DNA of 64,000 nt from Sphingomonas sp. M1-B02 (GTDB taxonomy: Bacteria; Pseudomonadota; Alphaproteobacteria; Sphingomonadales; Sphingomonadaceae), in contig NZ_CP110679.1 in NCBI RefSeq assembly GCF_026167525.1, positions 2,529,501 to 2,593,500 on the forward strand. Reading direction: 5' to 3'. Below, in pieces: positions 5,527 through 47,192 of the stretch. The translations under genes and the position numbers were made by a program. Position 1 is the stretch's first letter. Every line of letters begins with the position of its first letter. The notes under the pieces were generated by a model. That model searched no databases. It was not told the origin of the DNA and saw only the letters and a list, made by a program, of their open reading frames with translations.

Positions 5527-6584
5527 TCGGTATAGCCCTCGCTGCCCTGGCTGTAGAGGGTGGTGACATCGAGCGCATTGAGCGGCGCATCGGTGCGCAG
5601 CCGCTCGACCAGGTCCGGATTGGCGATGAACGGCCGGCCGAAGGCGATGCCATCGGCGTTGCCCGATTCCAGCTCGGCCTCGGCACGCGCCAGGTCATAA
5701 TCCTGGTTGAGGATCAGCGGCCCCTTGAACACCTTGCGGATCGCCGGCGAGATGCGCGGCTGGTCCGATCGGCCGAACGTGCCCTCGGGCCCCTGCTCGC
5801 GCAGCTCGAGGAAGGCGATGCCCTGGTCGGAGAGATACTGCGCCGCCGGCACGAATACCGCCTCGGGATTGCTGTCCTGCACGCCCTGCGCATCGCCATT
5901 GGGCGAGAAGCGCACCGCGACTCGATCGGCGCCCAGCTCGGTGATCAGCCGCTCGGTCGCCTCGCGCAGCAGGCGGCCGCGATTCTCCGGGCTGCCGCCA
6001 TATGCGTCTTCGCGGAAGTTCGAATTCTCGCGCAGGAACTGGTCGATCAGATAGCCATTGGCGGCATGCAGCTGCACGCCGTCGAAGCCGGCCGCCTTCG
6101 CATTACGGGCGGCGCGCGAATAATCGTCGAGCACGCGGGCAATGTCGTCGGTCGTCGCGGAGCGCGCCTCGCGATAATCCTGCTTGCCGGCATAGGTGTG
6201 CGCCGAGCCCGGGGCGGTGGTGGCGGATGCCGAAAGCGGCGGCGCGCCCTCCAGGAAATCGGGATGGACGATCCGGCCCATATGCCAAAGCTGGGCGAAG
6301 ATTCGCCCGCCCGCGGCATGGAATTTCTCGAGCACCGGCTTCCAGCCCTCGACCTGCTCGTCGGTCCACAGCCCCGGCGCAAACGGCCAGCCCAGCCCTT
6401 CGCGGCTGATCCCGGTCGCCTCGGAGATGATCAGCCCGGCGCCGGCACGCTGCGCATAATAATCGCCCATGATCGCCGTCGGCACATGCTCGCGCGTTGC
6501 GCGCGCGCGGGTCAACGGCGCCATCAAGATGCGGTTCGGGGCGTTGATCGCGCCCAGCTGGATCGGATCGAACAGGGTCGGCAT
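5496..6584 (-). CDS. Old yellow enzyme family FMN-dependent ene-reductase (NemA-like)
   Basis: Cytosolic NAD(P)H:flavin oxidoreductase that reduces activated alkenes or nitro/nitrate esters. The 362-residue TIM-barrel protein shows LMAPLTRARA near the N terminus, QLWHMGR, the substrate-binding HAANGYLIDQFL (His and Asn of the active site), DAYGGSPENRGR and the C-terminal IAFGRPFIANPDLVERL. It is divergent from the EamA transporter gene 55 bases away, so the two may share a regulatory region. Physiological substrate unknown. Confidence 0.92.
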   Translation of the reverse strand: MPTLFDPIQLGAINAPNRILMAPLTRARATREHVPTAIMGDYYAQRAGAGLIISEATGISREGLGWPFAPGLWTDEQVEGWKPVLEKFHAAGGRIFAQLWHMGRIVHPDFLEGAPPLSASATTAPGSAHTYAGKQDYREARSATTDDIARVLDDYSRAARNAKAAGFDGVQLHAANGYLIDQFLRENSNFREDAYGGSPENRGRLLREATERLITELGADRVAVRFSPNGDAQGVQDSNPEAVFVPAAQYLSDQGIAFLELREQGPEGTFGRSDQPRISPAIRKVFKGPLILNQDYDLARAEAELESGNADGIAFGRPFIANPDLVERLRTDAPLNALDVTTLYSQGSEGYTDYPLLEPVSG

Positions 6585-26742: not shown

Positions 26743-27690
26743 TCAAAGCCCGCCGGCGCGCATCCCCGGCCGGAATCGCCCGCGCGAATCCTGGTCCAGA
26801 ATCCGGCGGTAAAGCAGAGTGATCGCCACCCGCCGGTTGCGCGGATCGGCGGGGTTGGCGACGATCAGCGGTTCGCGGTCGGCGACGCCTTCGATCCGCT
26901 CGAAACGATCCTCGACGACCCCGCCCGCCGATAGCCGGCGGCGGGTCGCTTCGGAACGTCCGCTCGAGAGCATCCAGTTGTTCATGTTGCGCGGGTCGCC
27001 ATAGCCCAGGCTGTCGGTGTGGCCGCGGATCATGATCGGGTTCTCGAGGCCCTTGATCGATTCGGCGATGGTGCCGATCAGCGTGCTCGCATCGTTCACC
27101 AGCGCCGTCGTGCCCAGGTCGAACATCGAATAGTTGACGTCGTCGAGCAGGTCGATCCGCATCCCGTCGCGCGTCGGCACGAAGCGGATATGCTTGGCGA
27201 GCTTCGCCAGCGCGGGCGTCGCGCGCATCCGCGCCTGGATACGCTTGCTGGTCTCGGCGAAATTCTTCTTGTCCTGCTCGGTGAGCTTGCTCTGGTCCTT
27301 GAGCGATCCCTTGTCGCCGGTGCCGACATCGTTGCCGCCGACCCCGCCGATCGGAATCGTCATCGATCGCGTGCCGGCGCCCGAGGCCTTGGTGGGATAA
27401 TTGTCCTTGGCGTTGAGCGCGTCGCCGCCGAGCAGCCCGTTCGATCCAGCGCTGTTCTGCTTGAACTCGATCAGCGTCGGCGCGAAATAATCGGCCAGCG
27501 CCTTTCGCTGTTTCTCGGTAGTCGCGCCCAACAGCCACATCAGTAGGAAGAAGGCCATCATCGCCGTCACGAAATCGGCATAAGCGACCTTCCAGGCCCC
27601 GCCGTGGTGGCCGCCATGTCCTTCGATATAGATCTTCTTGACGATGATCCGGGGGGGCTGGTTGGTTCCGTGGGGTGCTCGCGCGGCCAT
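26743..27690 (-). CDS. motB: Flagellar motor stator protein MotB
   Basis: Peptidoglycan-anchored half of the stator. The N terminus IIVKKIYIEGHGGHHGGAWKVAYADFVTAMMAFFLLMWLLG carries the essential channel aspartate in YADF; a plug and linker follow, and the OmpA-like domain (about 165-300) has the IRGHTDSLGYGDP and SSGRSEATRRRL peptidoglycan-binding motifs. 315 residues. It follows motA by 3 bases. Confidence 0.95.
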   Translation of the reverse strand: MAARAPHGTNQPPRIIVKKIYIEGHGGHHGGAWKVAYADFVTAMMAFFLLMWLLGATTEKQRKALADYFAPTLIEFKQNSAGSNGLLGGDALNAKDNYPTKASGAGTRSMTIPIGGVGGNDVGTGDKGSLKDQSKLTEQDKKNFAETSKRIQARMRATPALAKLAKHIRFVPTRDGMRIDLLDDVNYSMFDLGTTALVNDASTLIGTIAESIKGLENPIMIRGHTDSLGYGDPRNMNNWMLSSGRSEATRRRLSAGGVVEDRFERIEGVADREPLIVANPADPRNRRVAITLLYRRILDQDSRGRFRPGMRAGGL

Positions 27691-27693
27691 GGA

Positions 27694-28557
27694 TCAGCGC
27701 CCGCGCAGTCCGTCGAACACCTCGCCGAAGTTCGGCTGGTTCGAGTGCGCGATGCCCGAGCGCGCGGCCTCGATCACCAGCGGCTGCGGATGGCCGTGGA
27801 GCGAGGCGATGATGATCTGCTTCACCACATGATAGATCGCCGCGTCGGCATCGATCACCTGCTGGAGCCGCGTCGCCAGCGGCCCGACCAGCCCGTATGC
27901 AAGCAACACGCCCAGGAAGGTGCCGACCAGCGCCGATCCGATCATCCCGCCCAGAATCGCGGGCGGCTTGTCGATCGATCCCATCGTCTTCACCACGCCC
28001 AGCACCGCGGCGACGATGCCGAGCGCCGGCAGCGCGTCGGCGAGGCCCTGCAGCGTCGTCTGCGGCCCCTGCACCTCGTGGTGGTGGGTCTTGATCGCAT
28101 TATCCATCACTTCCTCGACCGCGTGCACGTCGAGCGTGCCCGACGAGACGACCACGAGGCGCAGCGTATCGGTGACGAGGTTGATCAGCGTATGGTCTTT
28201 GAGCAGGCGCGGATATTCGGCGAAGATCGCGGAGGATTTGGGATCCTCGACATGCGGCTCGAGCGCGATCGGCCCGTCGGTGCGGAGCATCTTCATCAGC
28301 TTCGACACCAGGAAGATCGTGTCGAGATAATCCTGCTTCTTATATTTCGGGCCCTTGATGACCATCATGAAGCCGCTGCCCAGCGCCTTCAATTCCTTCA
28401 TCGAATTGCCGATGATCAAAGCGCCCAGCGCGGCGCCGCCGATGATCAGCATCTCGTGCGGCAGCGCATGCATGACGGGGCCCAGCGCGCCGCCGGTGAT
28501 GGCGAAGCCGCCAAAGACCATGGCGATCAGGACGACGAAGCCGATCAGCGGAAACAT
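27694..28557 (-). CDS. motA: Flagellar motor stator protein MotA
   Basis: Four-segment channel subunit of the stator. ATG 28557 (MFPLIGFVVL) is chosen over an upstream GTG; a run of G lies about 11 bases before it. Two N-terminal segments, a large cytoplasmic loop with RLVVVSSGTLDVHAVEEVMD, and the channel segments with DALPALGIVAAVLGVVKTMG (conserved proline) and the final hydrophobic helix are seen. 287 residues, E. coli-type. About 110 bases separate it from flgL; no promoter recognised there. Confidence 0.95.
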   Translation of the reverse strand: MFPLIGFVVLIAMVFGGFAITGGALGPVMHALPHEMLIIGGAALGALIIGNSMKELKALGSGFMMVIKGPKYKKQDYLDTIFLVSKLMKMLRTDGPIALEPHVEDPKSSAIFAEYPRLLKDHTLINLVTDTLRLVVVSSGTLDVHAVEEVMDNAIKTHHHEVQGPQTTLQGLADALPALGIVAAVLGVVKTMGSIDKPPAILGGMIGSALVGTFLGVLLAYGLVGPLATRLQQVIDADAAIYHVVKQIIIASLHGHPQPLVIEAARSGIAHSNQPNFGEVFDGLRGR

Positions 28558-37051: not shown

Positions 37052-37402
37052 TTATTCTCCCCTCAGCGCGCGCGTGATCGTCGAGATGCGGCCGTTCAGG
37101 AACGACAAGGTCGTCTGATAGGCCACGGCATTCTCGGCGAAGGCGGTTTGTTCGGTGGCGAGCTCGACGGTGTTGCCATCCTGGCTCGACTGCTGCGGAA
37201 TGCGGAACAGCGTTGCGTCGTCGATCGCGCTGTCCGAGCCGCCCGGCGCCTCGATCCCCTGGAGCGCGGCGCGGAAGTCGATGTCCTTCGCTTTATATCC
37301 GGGCGTGGACGCATTGGCGATGTTCGACGCCAGCACGCCCATGCGCTGCGAGCGCACAGTCAGCGCTGCGCCATGTACTCCGAATAGGCTGTCGTTCGAC
37401 AA
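37052..37402 (-). CDS. flgB: Flagellar proximal rod protein FlgB
   Basis: First gene of the flgBCDEFGHIJKL-motAB run. A TTG start at 37402 is chosen: it has GGGAG 7 bases upstream, lies about 25 bases after the predicted sigma-54 start site, and gives the normal FlgB N terminus LSNDSLFGVHGAALTVRSQRMGVLASNIANASTPGYKAKDIDF. The longer reading to 37570 would run through the promoter. Product 116 residues. Confidence 0.93.
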   Translation of the reverse strand: MSNDSLFGVHGAALTVRSQRMGVLASNIANASTPGYKAKDIDFRAALQGIEAPGGSDSAIDDATLFRIPQQSSQDGNTVELATEQTAFAENAVAYQTTLSFLNGRISTITRALRGE

Positions 37403-37437: not shown

Positions 37438-37453
37438 TGCAATGGGCGTGCCA
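37438..37453 (-). promoter_or_regulatory. Sigma-54 promoter for flgB operon
   Basis: Minus-strand reading TGGCAC-GCCCA-TTGCA, an exact match to the sigma-54 consensus with ten bases between the GG and GC. It would start transcription near 37427, about 25 bases before the flgB TTG. The flanking CGGCAA/TTGCCG elements are the proposed activator sites. Confidence 0.88.
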
Positions 37454-37585: not shown

Positions 37586-37601
37586 TGGCCCGCCTTTTGC
37601 A
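37586..37601 (+). promoter_or_regulatory. Sigma-54 promoter for the stator-like pair
   Basis: TGGCCC-GCCTT-TTGCA, one mismatch to consensus, exact GG-N10-GC spacing. A start site about 12 bases after the GC would fall at 37611-37613, so the mRNA would have almost no leader before ATG 37613. A CGGCAA half site overlaps its upstream edge. Confidence 0.8.
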
Positions 37602-37612
37602 AACCCGAGCGC

Positions 37613-38281
37613 ATGGACTTGACCGCCTTGCCTCCCCTCGCGCCCTTCCTCGATCCCGTCGCGTTCGGCATCGTTGGCGGCGGCACTCTCGTCGCAGTGA
37701 TCCTGCGTACCCCGCTGTCCGACCTCGGCCGCGGGATCGCCGCGCTCCGCGTGCTCGGGCGGCGGCGCTTCGACGTCGAACCGTTGCTAGATCAGTCCGC
37801 CGCGCTGGCACGCATCGCCAGGCGGCACGGGCTGATCGCGCTCGATCGCTCGATCCTGAAGGATCCGGACATGGCCGCCGCGGTGGCCGAGATCGTCGAC
37901 GGCGCCACGGCCGAGGATGTCGCGACATTGCTCCGGCACCGCATCCTCGCCCGCTTCGAGCGCCACCGCGCCGCGGCCGAGACGTGGAGCGGTATGGCCG
38001 ATATCGCACCGGCTATGGGAATGATCGGCACGCTCGTCGGCCTCGTCCAGATGTTCACCGCGATGCAGGACCCTGCGGCGATTGGCGGGGCGATGGCGAT
38101 AGCCTTGCTCACCACGCTCTACGGCGCGATCCTCGCCAGCCTGATCGCCTTGCCGATCGCGTCGCGGCTCAAGCAGCGCGCGCGTTACGAGGCGCAGGAA
38201 CGCGCACGGCTCGAAGGTCCGCTCCTCGTGCTCACCCGGCTCGAACCCGTACGCAGCGATCTGCGCGGGATGGCGGCATGA
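37613..38281 (+). CDS. PomA/MotA-like stator channel subunit lacking the first membrane segment
   Basis: 222 residues resembling the Vibrio PomA sequence I recall: the channel helices MADIAPAMGMIGTLVGLVQMF and IGGAMAIALLTTLYGAILASL are nearly identical to it, including the proline and threonines. The N terminus FLDPVAFGIVGGGTLVAVILR aligns with PomA segment 2, so segment 1 is missing, giving ExbB-like three-segment topology. In the loop, PomA LALEEME is LALDRSI here, so charges that contact the rotor differ. No in-frame start exists upstream that could add a segment. First gene after a sigma-54 promoter; overlaps the PomB-like gene by 4 bases. ExbB/TolQ is less likely. Confidence 0.82.
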   Translation: MDLTALPPLAPFLDPVAFGIVGGGTLVAVILRTPLSDLGRGIAALRVLGRRRFDVEPLLDQSAALARIARRHGLIALDRSILKDPDMAAAVAEIVDGATAEDVATLLRHRILARFERHRAAAETWSGMADIAPAMGMIGTLVGLVQMFTAMQDPAAIGGAMAIALLTTLYGAILASLIALPIASRLKQRARYEAQERARLEGPLLVLTRLEPVRSDLRGMAA

Positions 38282-38763
38282 CCTTGCCCGAGGACGCGCC
38301 CGCCCGGCCGATTTGGCTGACGACGCTTGCCGATCTCGCACTGCTGCTGCTCGGCTTCTTCGTGCTGCTCCAGGCGAACAAGATCGATCCGGGCACGCTC
38401 GCGGCCAGCTTTCGCGCCGGCTTCGATTCGCGCGAAGCCGCGATGCCGGTCGAAATGGCGCTCGTGCGCTTCGATCCCGGCTCCGCCGAGCCGCTCGACA
38501 TCTTTGCCGCCGCCGCCTGGGCGCGGGATGCCGCGCGCGATCCGCGCACGCGGCTGCGCATCACCGGGGAGATCGATGGCAGCGTGGCCGACGTCGATCC
38601 GCTCACCAATAGCGGTCCCTTGCTTGCCGCCGATCGTGCTCGCGCCGTCGCCGCCCTGCTCGTCGCCTCGGGCGCCGTCTCCCCCGATCGCATCGCCATC
38701 GCCACCGCCGCCGGCCAGCGCCGCGCGGTCCTCACCCTTGGTTTTGAGGGAGGCCGGCAATGA
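38278..38763 (+). CDS. Minimal PomB/MotB-like stator partner
   Basis: 161 residues, about half a normal MotB. N terminus PARPIWLTTLADLALLLLGFFVLLQ matches the PomB segment PxWxxTFADLxxLLxxFFVLL with the channel aspartate (Asp19) kept. A very short linker leads to a compressed OmpA-like domain (about 60-160): RFDPGSAEPLD, RITGEIDGS in place of GHTDS, and LLAADRARAVAALLVASG with the conserved arginine. Peptidoglycan anchoring is plausible but the domain is degenerate. Start 38278 overlaps its partner's stop. Confidence 0.8.
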   Translation: MTLPEDAPARPIWLTTLADLALLLLGFFVLLQANKIDPGTLAASFRAGFDSREAAMPVEMALVRFDPGSAEPLDIFAAAAWARDAARDPRTRLRITGEIDGSVADVDPLTNSGPLLAADRARAVAALLVASGAVSPDRIAIATAAGQRRAVLTLGFEGGRQ

Positions 38764-38819: not shown

Positions 38820-39344
38820 ATGTTCCTGACCCTAGCGCTGGCTTTGGCGGCGCCCGCCGCTGCGCAGGATTTCCAGTCGACCGTGTTGCTTGACACCGTC
38901 GTCGCGCAGTTCACCGGCAAGCCGGTGGGCGAGGTGGGCGGCGCGCGCACCCCGGTCGACGCGCGGCTGAAGCTGCAAGCCTGCGCGGCGCCCCAGCTCG
39001 AATGGCGCAGCGAGGCCAAGGATACGGTGATCGTGCGCTGCATAGCGCCCAACTGGCGGATCTTCGTGCCAGTGAACGCGCTGCCTCAGCCCAAGCCGGC
39101 CCCGGCGCCGCTCGCGCAGCGTCCTGCCGCTGCGGTCGCGAAGGCAGAGCCGGTGATCCGCCGCGGTGATCCGCTGACGGTCGAGGCGGGCTCGCCGGGC
39201 TTCTCGATAACTCGCGACGGCATCGCGATGGGAGACGCTGCCGCCGGCGCCCGGCTGATGGTCAAGGTCGATCCGAAGAAGCCACCGATCCAGGCGGTGG
39301 CGCTTGAATCCGGCCGCGCCCGGCTGCCCGGCTGGGCGGAGTGA
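38820..39344 (+). CDS. flgA: Flagellar P-ring assembly chaperone FlgA
   Basis: Periplasmic chaperone for FlgI. ATG 38820 with AAGGAG 6 bases upstream gives a 174-residue precursor with a short signal peptide (MFLTLALALAAPAAAQ). Pairs of cysteines (LQACAAP, VRCIAPN) and the C-terminal SAF-like domain (VIRRGDPLTVEAGSPGFSITRDGIAMGDAAAGARLMVKV) are present. A sigma-28 promoter starts directly behind it. Confidence 0.9.
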   Translation: MFLTLALALAAPAAAQDFQSTVLLDTVVAQFTGKPVGEVGGARTPVDARLKLQACAAPQLEWRSEAKDTVIVRCIAPNWRIFVPVNALPQPKPAPAPLAQRPAAAVAKAEPVIRRGDPLTVEAGSPGFSITRDGIAMGDAAAGARLMVKVDPKKPPIQAVALESGRARLPGWAE

Positions 39345-40019: not shown

Positions 40020-40035
40020 TGGCACGGTCCTTGCT
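40020..40035 (+). promoter_or_regulatory. Sigma-54 promoter for sltF-flhA-fliA
   Basis: TGGCAC-GGTCC-TTGCT, consensus match with ten bases between GG and GC. Predicted start near 40046; the coding sequence begins at 40074. The preceding flgN stop is only 10 bases upstream. Confidence 0.85.
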
Positions 40036-40073: not shown

Positions 40074-40958
40074 ATGAGCATCGTATCGGTCGACAGCAAG
40101 GCTGGCATTCAGACGGCGATCGCCGCGGCGAGCCGCAAGACCGGAATCGACTTCAACTATCTGATGGGGCAGGCGCAGGTCGAAAGCGGCATGCGCGCCG
40201 ACGCGCGCGCCCAGACCTCCAGCGCCACCGGGCTTTACCAGTTCATTGAACAAAGCTGGCTCGGCGTGGTCAAAGATCATGGCGCCGAGCATGGCCTGGG
40301 CTGGGCCGCGGATTCGATCCGCCAGACTTCCAGCGGCCGCTACGTCGTGAGCGATCCGGCGACGCGCAGGGCGATCCTCGACATGCGCAGCGATCCGCAG
40401 ACCGCGGCGATCATGGCGGCCGAACATGCCTCGGACAACAAGGCCGCGCTCGAGGACAAGCTCGGCCGCCCCGCCACCGGCACCGATCTCTACATGGCCC
40501 ATTTTCTGGGGCAGGGGGGGGCGGCCAAGTTCCTCGGCGCGATGGAAGCCAGCCCGGATCGCGCGGGCGCTGCGCTCTTCCCGGCTGCCGCCCGTGCCAA
40601 TCGCAACATCTTTTACGCTGCCAACGGCCAAGCCCGTTCGCTGAGCGACATTTATGCGCGCTTCGCCGGCAAGCTCGATCAGGGCGCCGCCTCGGTCGGT
40701 GCCGCTGGAAGTGCCTCCGGGCTCGACGGGCTCTCCGCGCAGCTCGACCAGTTCGGTGCGAGTCTCGGCGAATCCGAGGTTATCCTGGGCAATGATGCGG
40801 CCGGCGGCGATCGCCACTGGATCGAGACGACGCTGGCCCAGCTCAACACCTCGCGCAGCGGCGCCAATCCGCTCGCCCGCGAGGCAATCAATCCGCTGCG
40901 GCCCACGCCCGAAAATGCCCGGCTCGCTTATCTCATGCTCGCCAATCTGGGGGCGTAA
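40074..40958 (+). CDS. Flagellar lytic transglycosylase (SltF-like)
   Basis: Opens the peptidoglycan for rod passage, replacing the FlgJ muramidase. Catalytic glutamate in GQAQVESGMRADARAQTSSATGLYQFIEQSW (near residue 40), then KDHGAEHGLGWAADSI, typical of the SLT fold; the last 100 residues are low complexity and may bind the rod cap. 294 residues. No signal peptide is seen, so export would use the flagellar secretion system or another route; this is inference. Confidence 0.85.
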   Translation: MSIVSVDSKAGIQTAIAAASRKTGIDFNYLMGQAQVESGMRADARAQTSSATGLYQFIEQSWLGVVKDHGAEHGLGWAADSIRQTSSGRYVVSDPATRRAILDMRSDPQTAAIMAAEHASDNKAALEDKLGRPATGTDLYMAHFLGQGGAAKFLGAMEASPDRAGAALFPAAARANRNIFYAANGQARSLSDIYARFAGKLDQGAASVGAAGSASGLDGLSAQLDQFGASLGESEVILGNDAAGGDRHWIETTLAQLNTSRSGANPLAREAINPLRPTPENARLAYLMLANLGA

Positions 40959-40963
40959 TCCAC

Positions 40964-43042
40964 GTGAACGCAATGACGCTTCCCGCCGGCTTCGCCCCGG
41001 CAGTCCGCAGCTTCTCGCTGCCTTCGGCGATCCTGTTGCTCGTCGCCTTGATGGTCGTGCCGATCCCGGCCTTCCTGCTCGACGTCTTCTTCATCATGAA
41101 CATCATGATCAGCCTCGCGGTGCTGATGGTGGCGCTCAATGCACAGAAGCCGCTCGATTTCTCGGCCTTTCCCAGCGTCCTGCTTTTCGCCACGCTGTTT
41201 CGGCTGGGCCTCAACGTCGCTTCGACCCGCGTCGTGCTGGTCCACGGTCATGAAGGCGAAGCCGCTGCGGGCCATGTCATCGAGGCGTTCGGCAATTTCC
41301 TGATCGGCGGCGACTATGTCGTCGGTTTGTTGGTCTTCTCGATCCTGATCATCATTAACATGATCGTCGTCACCAAGGGCGCGGGCCGCGTGTCGGAAGT
41401 TTCCGCCCGCTTCACCCTCGATGCCTTGCCGGGCAAGCAGATGGCGATCGATGCCGATCTCAACGCCGGCCTGATCAGCCCCGACGAAGCCCGCGCCCGT
41501 CGCGCCGAAGTCTCGACCGAAGCCGATTTCTACGGCTCGATGGACGGTTCGTCGAAGTTCGTGAAGGGCGACGCGATCGCCGGCCTGTTGATCTTGTTCA
41601 TCAACATTATCGGCGGCTTGATCCTGGGCGTCGTCAGCCACCAGATGGCCGTGGGCGAAGCCGCGCAGACCTATATCCTGCTCGCGATCGGCGACGCGCT
41701 GGTGGCGCAGGTGCCGGCACTTTTGCTCTCGATCGCTGCCGCGGCGATCGTCACGCGGGTTACTTCGAAGCACGATCTGGCGGGCCAGATCGGCAGTCAG
41801 TTCGGCAGCTACAAGACCTGGATGCCGGTCGCGGTGATCCTGGCTTTGCTCGGCATCCTGCCCGGAATGCCGCATTTCGTGATCCTGCCCGCAGCCGCCG
41901 GCGCCGGCTTCGCGGCGTGGAGGCTCTACAAGAACGCCAATCTGCCGCCCCCGCCGGAACCCGCCGCCGAGCCAGCCGATCTGTCGCGGATCAGCTGGGA
42001 CGAAGTCACCGACAATATGCAGGTGATGCTCGACATCGGTTATGGGCTGGTGCCGCTGGTCGACGAAAGGCGCGGCGGCCCCTTGATGGGCCGCATCACC
42101 GGGGTGCGCCGCCAGCTGTCGAAGGATCTCGGCTTCGTCGTGCCGCAGGTGCGCGTCCGCGACGACATCAACCTGGCACCCTTCACCTATCGGATTGTGA
42201 TCGGCGGAGTCGTCGTCGGCGAAGACAATGTCTCGCCCGATGAGGTGCTCGCGCTTGATACCGGGCAAGCGGTTGGCACGCTGCGCGGCAAGCCGGTCAA
42301 GGACCCGACCTTCGGGCTCGACGCGATCTGGATTCCATCGGGCGATGCCGATGCCGCCACGGGTGCCGGTTACCTGGTCGTCGATCCCGGCACGGTGGTC
42401 GCAACGCACCTCAACCAGGTGCTGATCCAGCACGCCGCGGACCTGCTCGGCCCCGACGAGGTGCAATCGCTGCTCGACGGCCTCAAGGAGCGCGCCGCCG
42501 CTTTGGTCGCCGCGCTCTGCCCGAACCCGGTGCCGCTCACTACGCTCACCACGGTATTGCGCGGGCTGCTTGCGGAGAATGTCCCGCTCAAGGAGTTCCG
42601 CCGGATCGCCGCGGCGATCGCGGTCGCGTCGCAGCGTACGCTCGATGCCGACGAGATTCTCGAGCTGATCCGCCCCGATCTCGGGCCGCTGATCATCCAG
42701 CGGCTGTGCGGCGTGCGCGAGCCGCTGCGGGTGATGACGCTCGAAGGCCAGCTCGAAGCGCTGCTCGGCCAGGCGGTCCGCTCGGACCCGTCGAAGCGCC
42801 ACACGATCGAGCCCGATCTCGGCCGCCGCATCGCCGATGCGCTCCAGCGCGCCGCGGGTCCGCTGATCGCGGAGGCCAAGCCCTTCGCGCTCGTCGTCCA
42901 GCCCTCGATCCGCGTCGCGATCCGCAAGCTGGTCAAGACCGTCCTGCCCGACACGCCGGTGATGAGCTTCTTCGAAGTGCCCGAAGACAAGGCGGTCGAA
43001 GTCGTCGCGGTGATCGGCGCGCCGGAGGCGCTGCCCGCATGA
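40964..43042 (+). CDS. flhA: Flagellar export gate protein FlhA
   Basis: Large membrane component of the type III export gate. 692 residues from GTG 40964 (GGGGG 10 bases upstream; ATG 40973 also possible). Eight membrane segments in the first ~330 residues, with the conserved RFTLDALPGKQMAIDADLNAG loop, and a cytoplasmic ring-forming domain. The 3' end overlaps the fliA start region (ATGA). Confidence 0.96.
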   Translation: MNAMTLPAGFAPAVRSFSLPSAILLLVALMVVPIPAFLLDVFFIMNIMISLAVLMVALNAQKPLDFSAFPSVLLFATLFRLGLNVASTRVVLVHGHEGEAAAGHVIEAFGNFLIGGDYVVGLLVFSILIIINMIVVTKGAGRVSEVSARFTLDALPGKQMAIDADLNAGLISPDEARARRAEVSTEADFYGSMDGSSKFVKGDAIAGLLILFINIIGGLILGVVSHQMAVGEAAQTYILLAIGDALVAQVPALLLSIAAAAIVTRVTSKHDLAGQIGSQFGSYKTWMPVAVILALLGILPGMPHFVILPAAAGAGFAAWRLYKNANLPPPPEPAAEPADLSRISWDEVTDNMQVMLDIGYGLVPLVDERRGGPLMGRITGVRRQLSKDLGFVVPQVRVRDDINLAPFTYRIVIGGVVVGEDNVSPDEVLALDTGQAVGTLRGKPVKDPTFGLDAIWIPSGDADAATGAGYLVVDPGTVVATHLNQVLIQHAADLLGPDEVQSLLDGLKERAAALVAALCPNPVPLTTLTTVLRGLLAENVPLKEFRRIAAAIAVASQRTLDADEILELIRPDLGPLIIQRLCGVREPLRVMTLEGQLEALLGQAVRSDPSKRHTIEPDLGRRIADALQRAAGPLIAEAKPFALVVQPSIRVAIRKLVKTVLPDTPVMSFFEVPEDKAVEVVAVIGAPEALPA

Positions 43043-43071
43043 ACGCATATTCCCCAAGGAGCTTGAAGCAA

Positions 43072-43800
43072 ATGGCTTCCCTGGCCCAATCCCCGCTCGT
43101 TTACGAACGCGTTGCCCCGCGCGATGCCGAAGCACTAGTGCGAAAGCACCTGCCGCTGGTGCGGCGGATCGCATGGCACGTCCACGGATCGATGAGCTCG
43201 ATCGTCGAGGTCGAGGACCTTATCCAGATTGGCATGGTCGCACTGATCGAGGCGGTGACTGCGTTCGAAGATCGCGGCCAGGTCACGTTCGAGCAATATC
43301 TGGTAACGCGGCTGCGGGGATCGATGATCGACGAGCTACGCCGCCAGGCGACGCTCACCCGCGGGGCGATGCGCCGTCGCCGTGCCTATCAGGAAACCGT
43401 CGCCGCGCTTGCCGCCGAACTCGGGCATGCGCCCAGTGATATCGAAGTCGCTGAGAAGCTCGACGTCACTCCCGAGAAGCTCCGCGCCGAATATGTGACC
43501 GCGGAGGCAGTGCGCTTCGACTCGATCGACGATCTCTATTCGGACGAGAGCCCCTGGTTTATGTCCGACGAGCCCGACGCCTTCGATCAGCTCGCCGATT
43601 CGGACCAGCGCGAGGCGCTGATTGCCGCGATCACCGGTCTGCCCGAGCGCGAGGCGCAAGTGGTCCAGCTTTATTATGTCGAGGAGTTGAACCTCGAGGA
43701 AATCGGCCAGGTGCTCGGCGTTGGCGCCGCGCGCATTTGCCAGATCAAGGCGTCAGCGCATGCCCGGCTGAAACGCGCACTCCAGCGCCGCATGAGTTGA
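43072..43800 (+). CDS. fliA: RNA polymerase sigma-28 factor FliA
   Basis: Late flagellar sigma factor. ATG 43072 has AAGGAG upstream; the ATG at 43039, overlapping flhA's stop, adds 11 residues. Region 2 (HLPLVRRIAWHVHG, VEVEDLIQIGMVALIEA) and region 4 (TGLPEREAQVVQLYYVEELNLEEIGQVLGVGAARICQIKASA) are clear. 242 residues. Held in check by FlgM (39419) and predicted to read the promoters before flgM and fliD. Confidence 0.95.
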   Translation: MASLAQSPLVYERVAPRDAEALVRKHLPLVRRIAWHVHGSMSSIVEVEDLIQIGMVALIEAVTAFEDRGQVTFEQYLVTRLRGSMIDELRRQATLTRGAMRRRRAYQETVAALAAELGHAPSDIEVAEKLDVTPEKLRAEYVTAEAVRFDSIDDLYSDESPWFMSDEPDAFDQLADSDQREALIAAITGLPEREAQVVQLYYVEELNLEEIGQVLGVGAARICQIKASAHARLKRALQRRMS

Positions 43801-43866: not shown

Positions 43867-46800
43867 TCAGAAGCTGAACGACGCGCCCGCCTTGAACGTC
43901 CGCCCGATCAGACCGGCATAGTGCCAGGTGGTCAGGAAGTTTGGCGAGCTGGCATAAGATGCCGGTGCAATCGGTGCACGTGCCCCGAATACGTTGCCGA
44001 CGTTCGCGAAGAAGGTGAAATCGTCGTTCACGGCGTAGGTCAGGTTCATGTCGACGTTGATGAAGCTGTTCACGTAGCAGAAGTTCTTGCCGCTGGGATC
44101 CGACGCCGTCTTGTAGAGGCTGGCGGCGCAATCCAGCGACAAATTGCCCTGGTCGGTCGCGACTTCCTTGATCTTGCCGACATAATAAGCAGTCGCGCTG
44201 ATCGAGAGATCGTCGAGTTCCAGCGTATTCTGCCAATTGCCGCGCCAGTTCGGCGTGCCGTTGCCGGACGAGAGGTCGTACGGCCCGAGCGTACCTGCGA
44301 ACTTCTGTACACCCGATGCCGTGTGGCGATCATATTGGATCACGTGGGTCGCTTCGATCCGGCTCGTGAAGCGAACCCCCTCGGCCAGCGGAATACGCGC
44401 GGTTGCCGAGAAATCGATGCCTGACGTCTGATCGAAGTTCACATTCACGAACGGCGCGTTGATGATCAGCAGCCGCGGCAATGCGTTGGGGAACGCAGGA
44501 TCAATGCCGTCGATCGTGTTCACCGAATAGCCCGGCCCGATCGCCGCAACCGCCGCGGTCGCTGCCGCGAGCGTCGATTGGCTATAATAAGCGGTGATAG
44601 CCCGCCCGGCGTCGGGACCGTTAGCGATGAGGTTCGACTTCTTGACGTTGTAATAGTCCACCGTCGCGCTGAACCAGGGCGTCGGCTCGAAGATTATGCC
44701 GCCGGTAAAGCTGCGCGACGTCTCAGGCTTGAGGTCGGGATTGCCGACGAAGCCGCGGCCGACCGAGTAAGACAGGTTGTACGGATTGCCGCCGGTGACG
44801 CAGGCATTGCCGGCGCCCGCCGAACCACCATGGAGCGCGCAGAAATTGCCCGGAGGCTGGGTGGTAACGAAGCCCGCATATTGCGAACGGGGGCCCGATT
44901 CGGCGAAGGTCGGCGCGCGGAAGCCCTGCGAATAGGTGCCGCGGATGCCGACCTGCCGGATCGGCGTGAACTTGAAGCCGATCTTCGGCGAGAAGCGTCC
45001 GAAGCCTTCCGAATAATGATCGTAGCGGCCCGATCCGTTGATCTCGAGTATATCGAGCACGGGAGCCTGGATCTCGAAATATCCGGCCGAGACGGTGTGC
45101 TCGCCGAAGGCCGAAGACGTCGTCAACCCGTAGGTGTCGAGTGCGGCGTTCTGGTTGTTGTTCTCGAGCGACTCGCGCCGCACCTGGCCGCCGATCGCCA
45201 CCATCAGCGGGCCGCCGGGAAGCTCGAACAGCTTCTTGGTGATCGAGGCGTCCGCCGAATACATCTCGGAGAAGGACGGGGTGATCTTGTCGGGCGCGAT
45301 GGCGTTGCGCACCGCTGCCGAGTTGAGCGACGGATTGACGAAATTATAGGCGCCGGTGTTGATCGCATTCAGCGTGGCGGCGATGTTCAGGAAGCCGTGC
45401 TGGACGATCTCCAGATTGTCGCGGGCATAGACGCCGTTGATCTGCCAGGTCCAATCGTCGCCGAAGCTGCCGTTTAGGCCTGCCGCGACCCGATACACTT
45501 CGTTGGTGCGATCGCTTCCGGCGGGAATGTCGCCGAACAGATAATAGATCCGCGCCGCGCCGTTGGCGGGATCATTCGCAAACGCCGCTGCATAAGGGTT
45601 GTTGGGGTTCAGCCTGCGGCCGGGCGTGGTTGCCACGGCGCAGTTGATACCGGTTGGGCAGACATACACCGGCAGAACGATGCCAGGGTTGCTCGACGCC
45701 AGCGAGGGCGCTCCGCCATAAGGCTGCGTATTGCGCAACGCGCGGGGCGCATTTTTGATGCTGACATAGCTGTTCGAATAGCTGCCGGTGATGAAGGCTT
45801 CGATATTATCGGCCAGGCGGGCGCTGATGCGGCCGTTGATCGACCATTTGCGCTGGAGCGGGGCGAGCTGGAAATATTCGTCTTCGATATTGTGCCGGCA
45901 ACCGACGCCGTTGGCCGAGCCAGTCTGCGTATAGGTGCCGCCCGCGCAATCCGTGAGGTTGAGCGTCGTATAGTTGGTATTGAACAATGCCGTACCGCCG
46001 CTCAGCGGATTGTTGAGATTGGTCTGCGACGTGCGCACGACGACTGCGTTCGGGGTCGCCGTGGTCAGCGAATTGTCGGCGCCATTATTGTCGTTGCCGC
46101 CGATCGAGGTCAGATCGCGGTTGTTGTACGGGAAGCCGCGGCTGTTCGCGGTAACGCGCCCATCGCGCTGATACTCGCCATTGAGATAGACGTTCCAGCC
46201 CTGCGTGTCATAGTCGCCATAGCCGACGGTCAGATTGGCGCGCTGGCGCGCAGCGTCGCCCTTTTCCGACACGCCGCCTTCGATCGTGCCGGCGATTCCG
46301 ACGAACTGCTTCTTGAGGATAAGATTGACCACGCCGCCGATTGCATCGGCGCCATAGGTCGACGAGGCGCCGTCCTTGAGCACTTCGACGCGCTCGATCA
46401 GGCTGAACGGAATCGAGTTGAGGTCGACATAGGCGTTGTGGCCATCGTCGTTGATGGGGAAGTTGGTCGAGCGCAGCCCGTCGATAAGGACGAGCGTAGA
46501 AGAGACGCCGAGGCCGCGCAGCGAAACGGCGACGCCGCCGGCCGAGAAGCCGCTCTGGAAGCCGACGCCGATCGAACCGCCGCTATCCGCCGAGACCGAG
46601 CGCACCGCGTCGGCGACCGTCGTGATGCCGGCGCGCTCGAGTGTCTCGGAGGTCAGCACAGTGACGGGCGAAGGGGTCTCGGTGTCGGTGCGGCGGAAGA
46701 GCGAGCCGGTGACGACGATCGCGTTGTCTTCAGAATCCTGCGCCGACGCGACGGGGGCCTGGTCTTGGACTGCAGGCTGGGGGGCGTCCTGCGCGACGGC

Positions 46801-46887
46801 CGGAGCGGCGGCGAGGCTGATCGCCAGGGCGAAAGGCGCGGCGCTGCGGCGCAACAGCGCCGCCGGGGACGAATAGTGAAGATGCAT
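43867..46887 (-). CDS. TonB-dependent outer-membrane receptor
   Basis: 1006 residues from the ATG at 46887 (AGGGAG 7 bases upstream). Signal peptide about 1-32 (ending AVAQ), TonB-box-like NAIVVTGS near 55, a plug (ITTVADAVRSVSADSGGSIGVGF, VLIDGLRSTNFPI, VEVLKDGASSTYGADAIGGVVNLILKKQF) and a barrel ending FKAGASFSF. Several cysteines lie in extracellular loops. Its ligand is unknown. It lies between fliA and fliC with reversed orientation and splits the flagellar block. Confidence 0.92.
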   Translation of the reverse strand: MHLHYSSPAALLRRSAAPFALAISLAAAPAVAQDAPQPAVQDQAPVASAQDSEDNAIVVTGSLFRRTDTETPSPVTVLTSETLERAGITTVADAVRSVSADSGGSIGVGFQSGFSAGGVAVSLRGLGVSSTLVLIDGLRSTNFPINDDGHNAYVDLNSIPFSLIERVEVLKDGASSTYGADAIGGVVNLILKKQFVGIAGTIEGGVSEKGDAARQRANLTVGYGDYDTQGWNVYLNGEYQRDGRVTANSRGFPYNNRDLTSIGGNDNNGADNSLTTATPNAVVVRTSQTNLNNPLSGGTALFNTNYTTLNLTDCAGGTYTQTGSANGVGCRHNIEDEYFQLAPLQRKWSINGRISARLADNIEAFITGSYSNSYVSIKNAPRALRNTQPYGGAPSLASSNPGIVLPVYVCPTGINCAVATTPGRRLNPNNPYAAAFANDPANGAARIYYLFGDIPAGSDRTNEVYRVAAGLNGSFGDDWTWQINGVYARDNLEIVQHGFLNIAATLNAINTGAYNFVNPSLNSAAVRNAIAPDKITPSFSEMYSADASITKKLFELPGGPLMVAIGGQVRRESLENNNQNAALDTYGLTTSSAFGEHTVSAGYFEIQAPVLDILEINGSGRYDHYSEGFGRFSPKIGFKFTPIRQVGIRGTYSQGFRAPTFAESGPRSQYAGFVTTQPPGNFCALHGGSAGAGNACVTGGNPYNLSYSVGRGFVGNPDLKPETSRSFTGGIIFEPTPWFSATVDYYNVKKSNLIANGPDAGRAITAYYSQSTLAAATAAVAAIGPGYSVNTIDGIDPAFPNALPRLLIINAPFVNVNFDQTSGIDFSATARIPLAEGVRFTSRIEATHVIQYDRHTASGVQKFAGTLGPYDLSSGNGTPNWRGNWQNTLELDDLSISATAYYVGKIKEVATDQGNLSLDCAASLYKTASDPSGKNFCYVNSFINVDMNLTYAVNDDFTFFANVGNVFGARAPIAPASYASSPNFLTTWHYAGLIGRTFKAGASFSF

Positions 46888-47192
46888 TGCTGAACTCCCT
46901 GGATGCCCGCCTTGTGGCGGATCGGAACCGGCACGCGGAGCCCAGCCCCAGTGCCAATATGTCCAGCATGTGCCTCGGCTGACACATTTGCGCAATACTC
47001 CAGATAAATTGTGTAGCGCTGTGGTATGTCTGCAACACGGTCGCGCCTGTCGCGGTCCGGCCCCGCGGATAAACACAGAAAAGCCCCGATGGTCGCGTGG
47101 ACCATCGGGGCTCCCCATGCGCCCTTTCTCCGAGAAGAAAGGTGACCGGCCGCGGTGCCTGTCAGGGGGGTGACACCCCGACCGGCACGCGC
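46888..47192. other. Intergenic region between the receptor and fliC genes
   Basis: 305 bases without a gene. The part next to fliC holds three inverted repeats: GGGGTG/CACCCC around 47166, CTTTCT/AGAAAG around 47130, and the strong terminator at 47082-47112. The receptor-proximal half should contain the receptor promoter, but I recognised no clear -35/-10 or operator. Confidence 0.6.
47071..47112 (-). terminator. Strong intrinsic terminator of fliC
   Basis: In minus-strand orientation AGCCCCGATGGTC (47112-47100) pairs perfectly with GACCATCGGGGCT (47094-47082) around a five-base loop, followed by TTTCTGTGTTT. A 13-pair stem is unusually long. It lies about 80 bases after the flagellin stop. 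Confidence 0.88.

Follow-up and report, generated by a model that had tools for sequence, protein, structure and literature searches.

The question raised by this locus is what a flagellar stator-type gene pair does when its A subunit lacks the first membrane helix. Two overlapping genes on the forward strand, 37613..38281 and 38278..38763, sit between the divergent flgB and flgA in a flagellar cluster of Sphingomonas sp. M1-B02, within a 64,000-nucleotide (nt) stretch of contig NZ_CP110679.1 (positions 2,529,501 to 2,593,500) that was analyzed as a whole and is called the window here. The first encodes a short PomA (A subunit; 222 amino acids (aa), three membrane helices, without transmembrane helix 1 (TM1)), as assigned from profiles, fold and a structural model, and the second encodes a mini-PomB (B subunit; 161 aa), as assigned from profiles, structure comparison and a model. 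Judged by sequence comparison, the anatomy and descent of the pair are firm; as for its role, we see an even chance that it is a reduced accessory stator-type rotary unit.

Descent from PomAB

The A subunit matched the MotA_ExbB profile (7.9e-25), and its top match was the PomA model NF006527, beginning only at position 27 of 254. Among solved structures, the best matches were PomA chains of Vibrio, with the alignment beginning at PomA residue 24-26. A tree placed the short A subunits with PomA and flagellar A subunits, apart from ExbB/TolQ and from the window's own MotA; it was built by a quick method with Shimodaira-Hasegawa-like approximate likelihood ratio (SH-aLRT) support only, with ExbB/TolQ represented by two rows from the window's own genome that were named by judgement, and it gave no placement of the short clade with gamma-type versus alpha-type PomA. 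The original prediction had traced the 222-residue protein to PomA and had named placement with ExbB/TolQ as one result that would speak against it; profile, structure and tree agree in putting the protein with PomA. Comparison thus shows that the pair descends from PomAB, with a single loss of TM1 on the branch that gave rise to the sphingomonad short-A genes.

Two other lines were set aside. At E 0.1, neither protein matched any of the PADLOC profiles of defence systems, such as Zorya ZorAB (0 families each), and identity as a defence pair was rejected. The absence of a MotA_N match in the short A was dropped as evidence, as full-length PomA barely matches this profile (one of six, weakly); for the same reason, MotA_N is used below to count classical MotA only.

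Absence of TM1

Upstream of the ATG of the short A gene, neither the open frame nor any other frame within 240 nt is hydrophobic (best hydropathy window 0.45). Fifty-nine regions around relatives were fetched, and 55 of them had a short gene at flgB-flgA, in line with the predicted conservation at this site in many sphingomonads; together with the window, they provide 56 short A subunits. The four regions set aside carry full-length PomA beside fliG, in which TM1 was read (L044, L064 and L067), or classical MotA only (L096). The 56 proteins span 215-244 aa and begin at the region of PomA Asp31, with TM1 absent from all. The upstream hydropathy window never reaches 1.6 in 55 of them, the exception being L098 (2.04). 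TM1 was also absent in all 23 Sphingomonas-type loci among named public records (L100-L122). By comparison, it was present in 97 of 97 testable PomA loci from outside (a few of which are identical in sequence), namely 56/56 testable genes of other taxa (L123-L179, among which L167 is truncated at the end of its contig), 26/26 loci of other Alphaproteobacteria families (L184-L209, the best-scoring loci from outside the own family) and 15/15 loci of the order that belong to other families (L266-L279, L282). The loss of TM1, as first proposed for the window, is confirmed and shared by all short-A loci read, and a missed start or frameshift, the other named objection, was looked for and met with no hydrophobic upstream frame and the same shortness across relatives.

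The remaining helices of the A subunit (all +) correspond to PomA TM2 (residues 15-32 in the model; 37655..37708), TM3 (about residues 127-149, with Thr140 equivalent to PomA T158; 37991..38059) and TM4 (about residues 154-181, with Thr167/Thr168 equivalent to T185/T186; 38072..38155), the boundaries of the latter two being approximate. The cytoplasmic region is about as long as that of PomA, with model helices at 35-43, 45-48, 56-72 and 85-95. Around the first helix, the N-terminal tail carries a net charge of -1 to -3 and the stretch after the helix 0 to +5 in all 56 short A subunits, and the short acidic tail ahead of this helix is predicted to be periplasmic. With three membrane helices, the protein lacks the four-helix square fold that the available part of a survey (PMC12505986) lists for the FIT group of flagellar stators, and it has the three helices and, according to the model and the charge bias, probably the periplasmic N-terminus of ExbB/TolQ. 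A further feature of the FIT A subunits is a torque-generating interface that comprises at least four helices and bears rotor-facing charges.

Channel residues and rotor-facing charges

The channel residues are the best conserved part of the short A. In Vibrio numbering, P151, T158 and G189 are found in 56/56, Asp31 in 54 and Tyr188 in 52, while the T186 position is Thr in 49 and Ser in 7, and the T185 position is Thr in 43. The use of T158/T186 as sole proof of sodium coupling was rejected, because the accessible part of PMC12965293 assigns proton transport to the equivalent Thr residues of TolQ, ExbB and an H+ MotA.

According to Hu et al. (PMC10374538, seen in part), R88, E96 and D114 are indispensable in Vibrio PomA. 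We aligned 34 Sphingomonas-type A subunits (the window, 23 of 119 others listed as relatives and 10 of the 23 named-record loci), in which the R88 position is R/K in 29, the E96 position is acidic in 34 and the D114 position is Asp in 34. Likewise, the nine own-genus members among the 56 have R/K in seven, an acidic residue in nine and Asp in nine. The charges kept in Sphingomonas-type proteins favour a working stator.

Mini-PomB

Profile searches found in the B subunit a MotB channel helix and a weak OmpA match. The channel helix, with Asp19, covers residues 17-33 (38326..38376, +; model and alignment), followed by a plug-like helix at residues 38-49 (38389..38424, +; model), which lines up with the segment of PomB that follows its membrane helix, and a compact OmpA-like domain at residues 55-156 (38440..38745, +; model and profiles). 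Asp100 and Arg120 of this domain are kept in 24/24 close relatives. The channel Asp occurs in 52/52 aligned B subunits picked by a script that required an acidic residue within the first 60, and also in the four loci missed by the script, which were read without this filter, making 56/56. Both the PomB-type channel helix with Asp19 and the tiny, altered OmpA-like domain of the original prediction are thus recovered.

By eye, the B subunits were sorted into class 1 (30), class 2 (17) and neither class (five: L041, L048, L059, L068 and L080), and the Pfam scan covered the first two. At E 0.1, class-1 proteins match MotB_plug in 30/30 and OmpA in 28/30, with only 19-35 residues from the membrane helix to the OmpA domain (n = 30). 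Class-2 proteins (L042, L043, L045 and 14 others), from loci that we label Erythrobacter-like, keep W..xLADLxLILF with the Asp, and the rest of their periplasmic part has no consistent Pfam match. The plug with a long linker, as in PomB/MotB, is therefore not seen: class 1 has a plug-like helix followed by a short linker, with L049 as an exception.

An otherwise short A at L049 is accompanied by a B subunit (after 4184) whose linker is longer and whose size is about 218 aa. This B is a candidate for an intermediate or a regained tether, and it shows that the short tether is not universal.

Promoter of the pair

The window carries a sigma-54-type promoter, TGGCCCGCCTTTTGCA (37586..37601, +), an exact match to TGGCMCGNNNNTTGCW with the -12 GC 12 nt ahead of the ATG, and a consensus scan also found a sigma-54-type site upstream of flgB (37438-37453, -). 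In 9/9 own-genus loci, the site of the pair lies 12-18 nt ahead of the start and scores 10-11 of 12; in 22/23 named Sphingomonas-type loci, it scores 10-12 of 12, versus 14/2300 mononucleotide shuffles. In Sphingomonas-type genomes, it occupies the upstream DNA where a missed TM1 would lie. Outside Sphingomonas and its nearest kin, the consensus mostly finds no site near the start (score >=9 in 18/56 versus 217/2800 shuffles). A sigma-54 transcript starting with the pair, as had been proposed, is well supported for Sphingomonas by this exact, conserved upstream site, and the kind of promoter shared with flgB suggests that the pair is made together with the basal body. Given the usual distance from the -12 element to the transcript start, the transcript may begin at or near the start codon, i.e., be leaderless, because the -12 GC lies 12 nt before the ATG.

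Distribution and inheritance

Of 397 family genomes in a single draw, 249 have FliG, 248 have classical MotA_N and 177 have a gene matching the short-A query (P0001), the last number being an upper bound for the short form, as some weak matches may be MotA. Up to 173 of the 249 FliG genomes have such a gene, again an upper bound, compared by eye. Co-occurrence with a normal MotAB, noted in the window, also extends to the family, with MotA_N present in 174 of the 177 genomes; the other three are two drafts (G143 and G263) and G036. The last (L286) was rejected as a case of the pair serving as sole stator, its flagellar cluster being decayed. In G036, repeated open reading frames (ORFs), judged to be transposase-like, stand in place of flgK-flagellin-motAB, and the short pair and rod/hook genes remain.

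When the 76 FliG genomes without a query match were searched with a more sensitive profile, a near-full-length short A was found only in G019, and one split in two was found in G079 (L281, about 6000-6530), where the frame seems to be broken between positions 82 and 114 of the profile. We sought flgB in 24 of these 76 genomes and found it in 22; at 20 of the 22 loci, flgA is directly divergent with no short-A or mini-B query match between, and L301 and L310 showed no flgA. On a tree of FlgB+FlgC+FlgD (76 rows), presence or absence of the pair needs 3 changes versus 17.9 for shuffled labels. This tree and the pair-less loci show that the pair is inherited with the flg cluster, having been gained or lost a few times, and that it is not needed for having a flagellar cluster.

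At all 56 loci with a short A, flgB is divergent at 183-490 nt from it, and among the 52 loci with a script-picked B, 48 have an A stop and B start that overlap by 4 nt. The pair adjoins assembly genes, not motAB, at the loci read, and a profile scan of the four genes after the pair found no TonB/TolA-like gene. Public records name A as motility protein A, chemotaxis protein MotA or biopolymer transporter ExbB, and B as flagellar motor protein MotB or OmpA family protein.

Possible functions of the pair

The reading as a reduced accessory stator, to which we give an even chance, is favoured because the genus of the window has retained the channel, the plug and the rotor charges together, and because the flgB-like sigma-54-type promoter suggests production with the basal body, beside normal MotAB. 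In such a unit, five short A subunits would encircle two B subunits, the N-terminus of A would lie in the periplasm like that of ExbB/TolQ, and ions passing Asp19 of B and Thr140/Thr168 of A would turn the A ring around the B dimer. The plug helix would shut the channel until docking. In Sphingomonas, the A ring might still meet FliG, as suggested by the retained rotor-facing charges, and the unit would act as a second stator beside MotAB, probably weaker or early-acting. The OmpA domain would be kept near the inner membrane or in contact with a partner in the basal body, not stretched to the wall as in MotB/PomB, because only 19-35 residues separate it from the membrane helix.

Several results weigh against this reading. 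Beyond Sphingomonas, the rotor-facing charges are kept less well: R88 is R/K in 3, E96 acidic in 22 and D114 Asp in 15 of the other genera with class-1 B (n = 22), with 4, 7 and 2, respectively, in a third group (n = 7) and 8, 9 and 0 in genera with class-2 B (n = 18). This loss counts against a classical wall-anchored torque generator, as do the missing peptidoglycan tether and, in one group, an OmpA domain that is no longer recognisable. As to the tether, the B subunit falls short of the smallest functional PomB, a deletion of 41-120 that still has 121-315 (PMC9093738, seen in part), and the 17 scanned class-2 proteins gave 0 matches to MotB_plug or OmpA. In addition, T185, essential in Vibrio according to the part of PMC6677748 at hand, is Thr in 17 (including residue 167 of the window), Ala in 16 and Ser in 1 of the 34 Sphingomonas-type A subunits, a variation that possibly reflects a switch of coupling ion within one genus. 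Hu et al. suspect, in the text available (PMC10374538), that TM1 carries the activation signal, which would be missing from such a unit. We found no intact cluster with the short pair as sole stator. The window as a whole holds four sigma-54-type sites (<=1 mismatch), a number equalled by 6/100 shuffles and not clearly above chance, so that the support for the promoter of the pair lies in its position and conservation, not in the window-wide number.

The next candidate, tentative and clearly less probable than an accessory stator, is an energy transducer without torque, working in the way of TolQR/ExbBD, in which the ion gradient would drive work on the envelope or on the assembly of rod and P-ring during construction of the basal body. 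The three-helix, N-out topology of A in the model and charge bias resembles that of ExbB/TolQ, B has no long wall tether, and one large group has lost the rotor charges and a recognisable OmpA domain with its channel intact. In the loci read, the pair also lies next to assembly genes and not to motAB; its neighbours in the window are flgA and, at some distance, a transglycosylase-like gene. However, the Sphingomonas-type proteins keep the rotor-facing charges and the OmpA Asp/Arg, the flg arrangement is the same in flagellated relatives that lack the pair, implying that the pair is not generally needed for the cluster, and the four genes scanned downstream include nothing like TonB/TolA. A bolder version, which we hold to be doubtful, is that a stator lineage reverted to the ExbB/TolQ architecture as a separate, sigma-54-timed and ion-driven basal-body machine, acting at the inner membrane in building or tuning the flagellum and not as a swimming motor anchored to the wall; its fully converted form would then be the Erythrobacter-like branch, which has neither a recognisable OmpA domain nor full rotor charges. 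The accessory stator and the TolQR-like transducer may also both be true, in different genera.

A purely regulatory role is unlikely, in which the pair, as a gated ion channel or a competitor, would influence the motor as a brake, an ion leak or a control of stator number while doing no work of its own. The strong conservation of the channel and the plug region kept in class 1 would suit such a role, whereas class 2 has no plug match, where an ungated channel would be costly, and the charge pattern of Sphingomonas-type proteins suggests contact with FliG. Still more improbable is a relic of an old PomAB, heading for loss and kept by chance: although the B subunits diverge, losses appear on the tree and the G079 copy is broken, the pair had a single origin and then reached dozens of genera with its channel residues unchanged, and its promoter is conserved in Sphingomonas-type genomes. 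Membership of A in the ExbB/TolQ family, with a mere resemblance to PomA, is ruled out for practical purposes by profile, fold and tree, despite the three helices, the small B and an occurrence of 'biopolymer transporter ExbB' among the public names. That TM1 is hidden by an overlooked start codon, a frameshift or a faulty assembly is likewise ruled out, with hardly any probability left to it, by the equal shortness in 56 + 23 loci and by the promoter in the upstream DNA of Sphingomonas-type genomes.

Comparison with known systems

Compared with Vibrio PomA/PomB (the Na+ stator of the TGI4 group), the sphingomonad A differs by the absent TM1 and B is short of about 120 tether residues (in PomB, the domain match starts at 183), while the pair differs in its location between flgB and flgA and in standing beside MotAB. 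The E. coli-type MotA/MotB of the window (26743-28557) belong to the same superfamily and the same flagellar cluster; this MotA, unlike the short A, has a MotA_N part and other TM3/TM4 sequences, and it is separate in the tree. ExbB/ExbD and TolQ/TolR resemble the pair in a three-helix A with the N-terminus out, as predicted for the short A, and in a small B with a short linker, but they differ in sequence, fold and tree, and no TonB/TolA partner is found among the next genes of the pair. Dual-stator motors, such as those of Shewanella (PomAB+MotAB), Pseudomonas (MotAB+MotCD) and Bacillus (MotAB+MotPS), likewise combine two stator-type pairs in one motor, both of which are full-length four-helix stators. 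Finally, in other families of the Sphingomonadales, the fliF-fliG cluster contains an orphan full-length PomA that shares the PomA lineage and a flagellar locus with the short A, and it differs in having TM1 (15/15), no PomB directly after and a response-regulator-like gene next. The same order, fliF-fliG-...-pomA-response-regulator-like gene, without a PomB directly after, was seen in L266-L279 and L282 as well as in L044, L064 and L067.

According to the available part of a 2025 survey of MotAB evolution (PMC12505986), the hallmarks of flagellar A/B subunits include the four-helix square fold, a plug with linker and an expanded peptidoglycan-binding domain, and that part mentions no three-helix or sphingomonad form. 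Among the matches listed from the open-licence literature in PMC, there was no report of a three-helix PomA or of the sphingomonad pair either. The pair is thus a widely conserved member of the flagellar lineage without the square fold and, nearly always, without the linker listed there, as far as that part of the survey (PMC12505986) goes. It runs the supposed direction of evolution in reverse and offers a natural test of the roles of TM1 and the tether, with ready controls in relatives that have the same cluster but no pair, and in a graded series of losses.

Neighbouring genes and other observations

The next gene on the same strand is flgA (38820..39344, +; ChapFlgA 1.7e-05). The divergent neighbour (37052..37402, -), supported by homologues at related loci and with a TTG start judged from the sequence, is taken to be flgB on the basis of FlgB sequence and its position beside flgC/flgD. 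In the same flagellar cluster, classical motA (27694..28557, -) matches MotA_N (2.7e-31), and classical motB (26743..27690, -) matches MotB_plug (1e-19) and OmpA (4.1e-10). The genome (3.6 Mb, one contig) possesses four MotA/ExbB-family genes, which are the short A, the classical MotA 9 kb off and two others judged to be of ExbB/TolQ type. The named relatives closest to it belong to Sphingomonas.

A TonB-dependent receptor gene (43867-47118, -; beta-barrel 1.1e-33) lies inside the flagellar cluster and adjoins a large ORF (40928-43174). Moreover, a third exact sigma-54-type site (40020-40035, +) lies ahead of a gene downstream of flgA-flgM-flgN (40074-40958, +) that weakly matches transglycosylase (SLT) and possibly encodes a rod-insertion muramidase.
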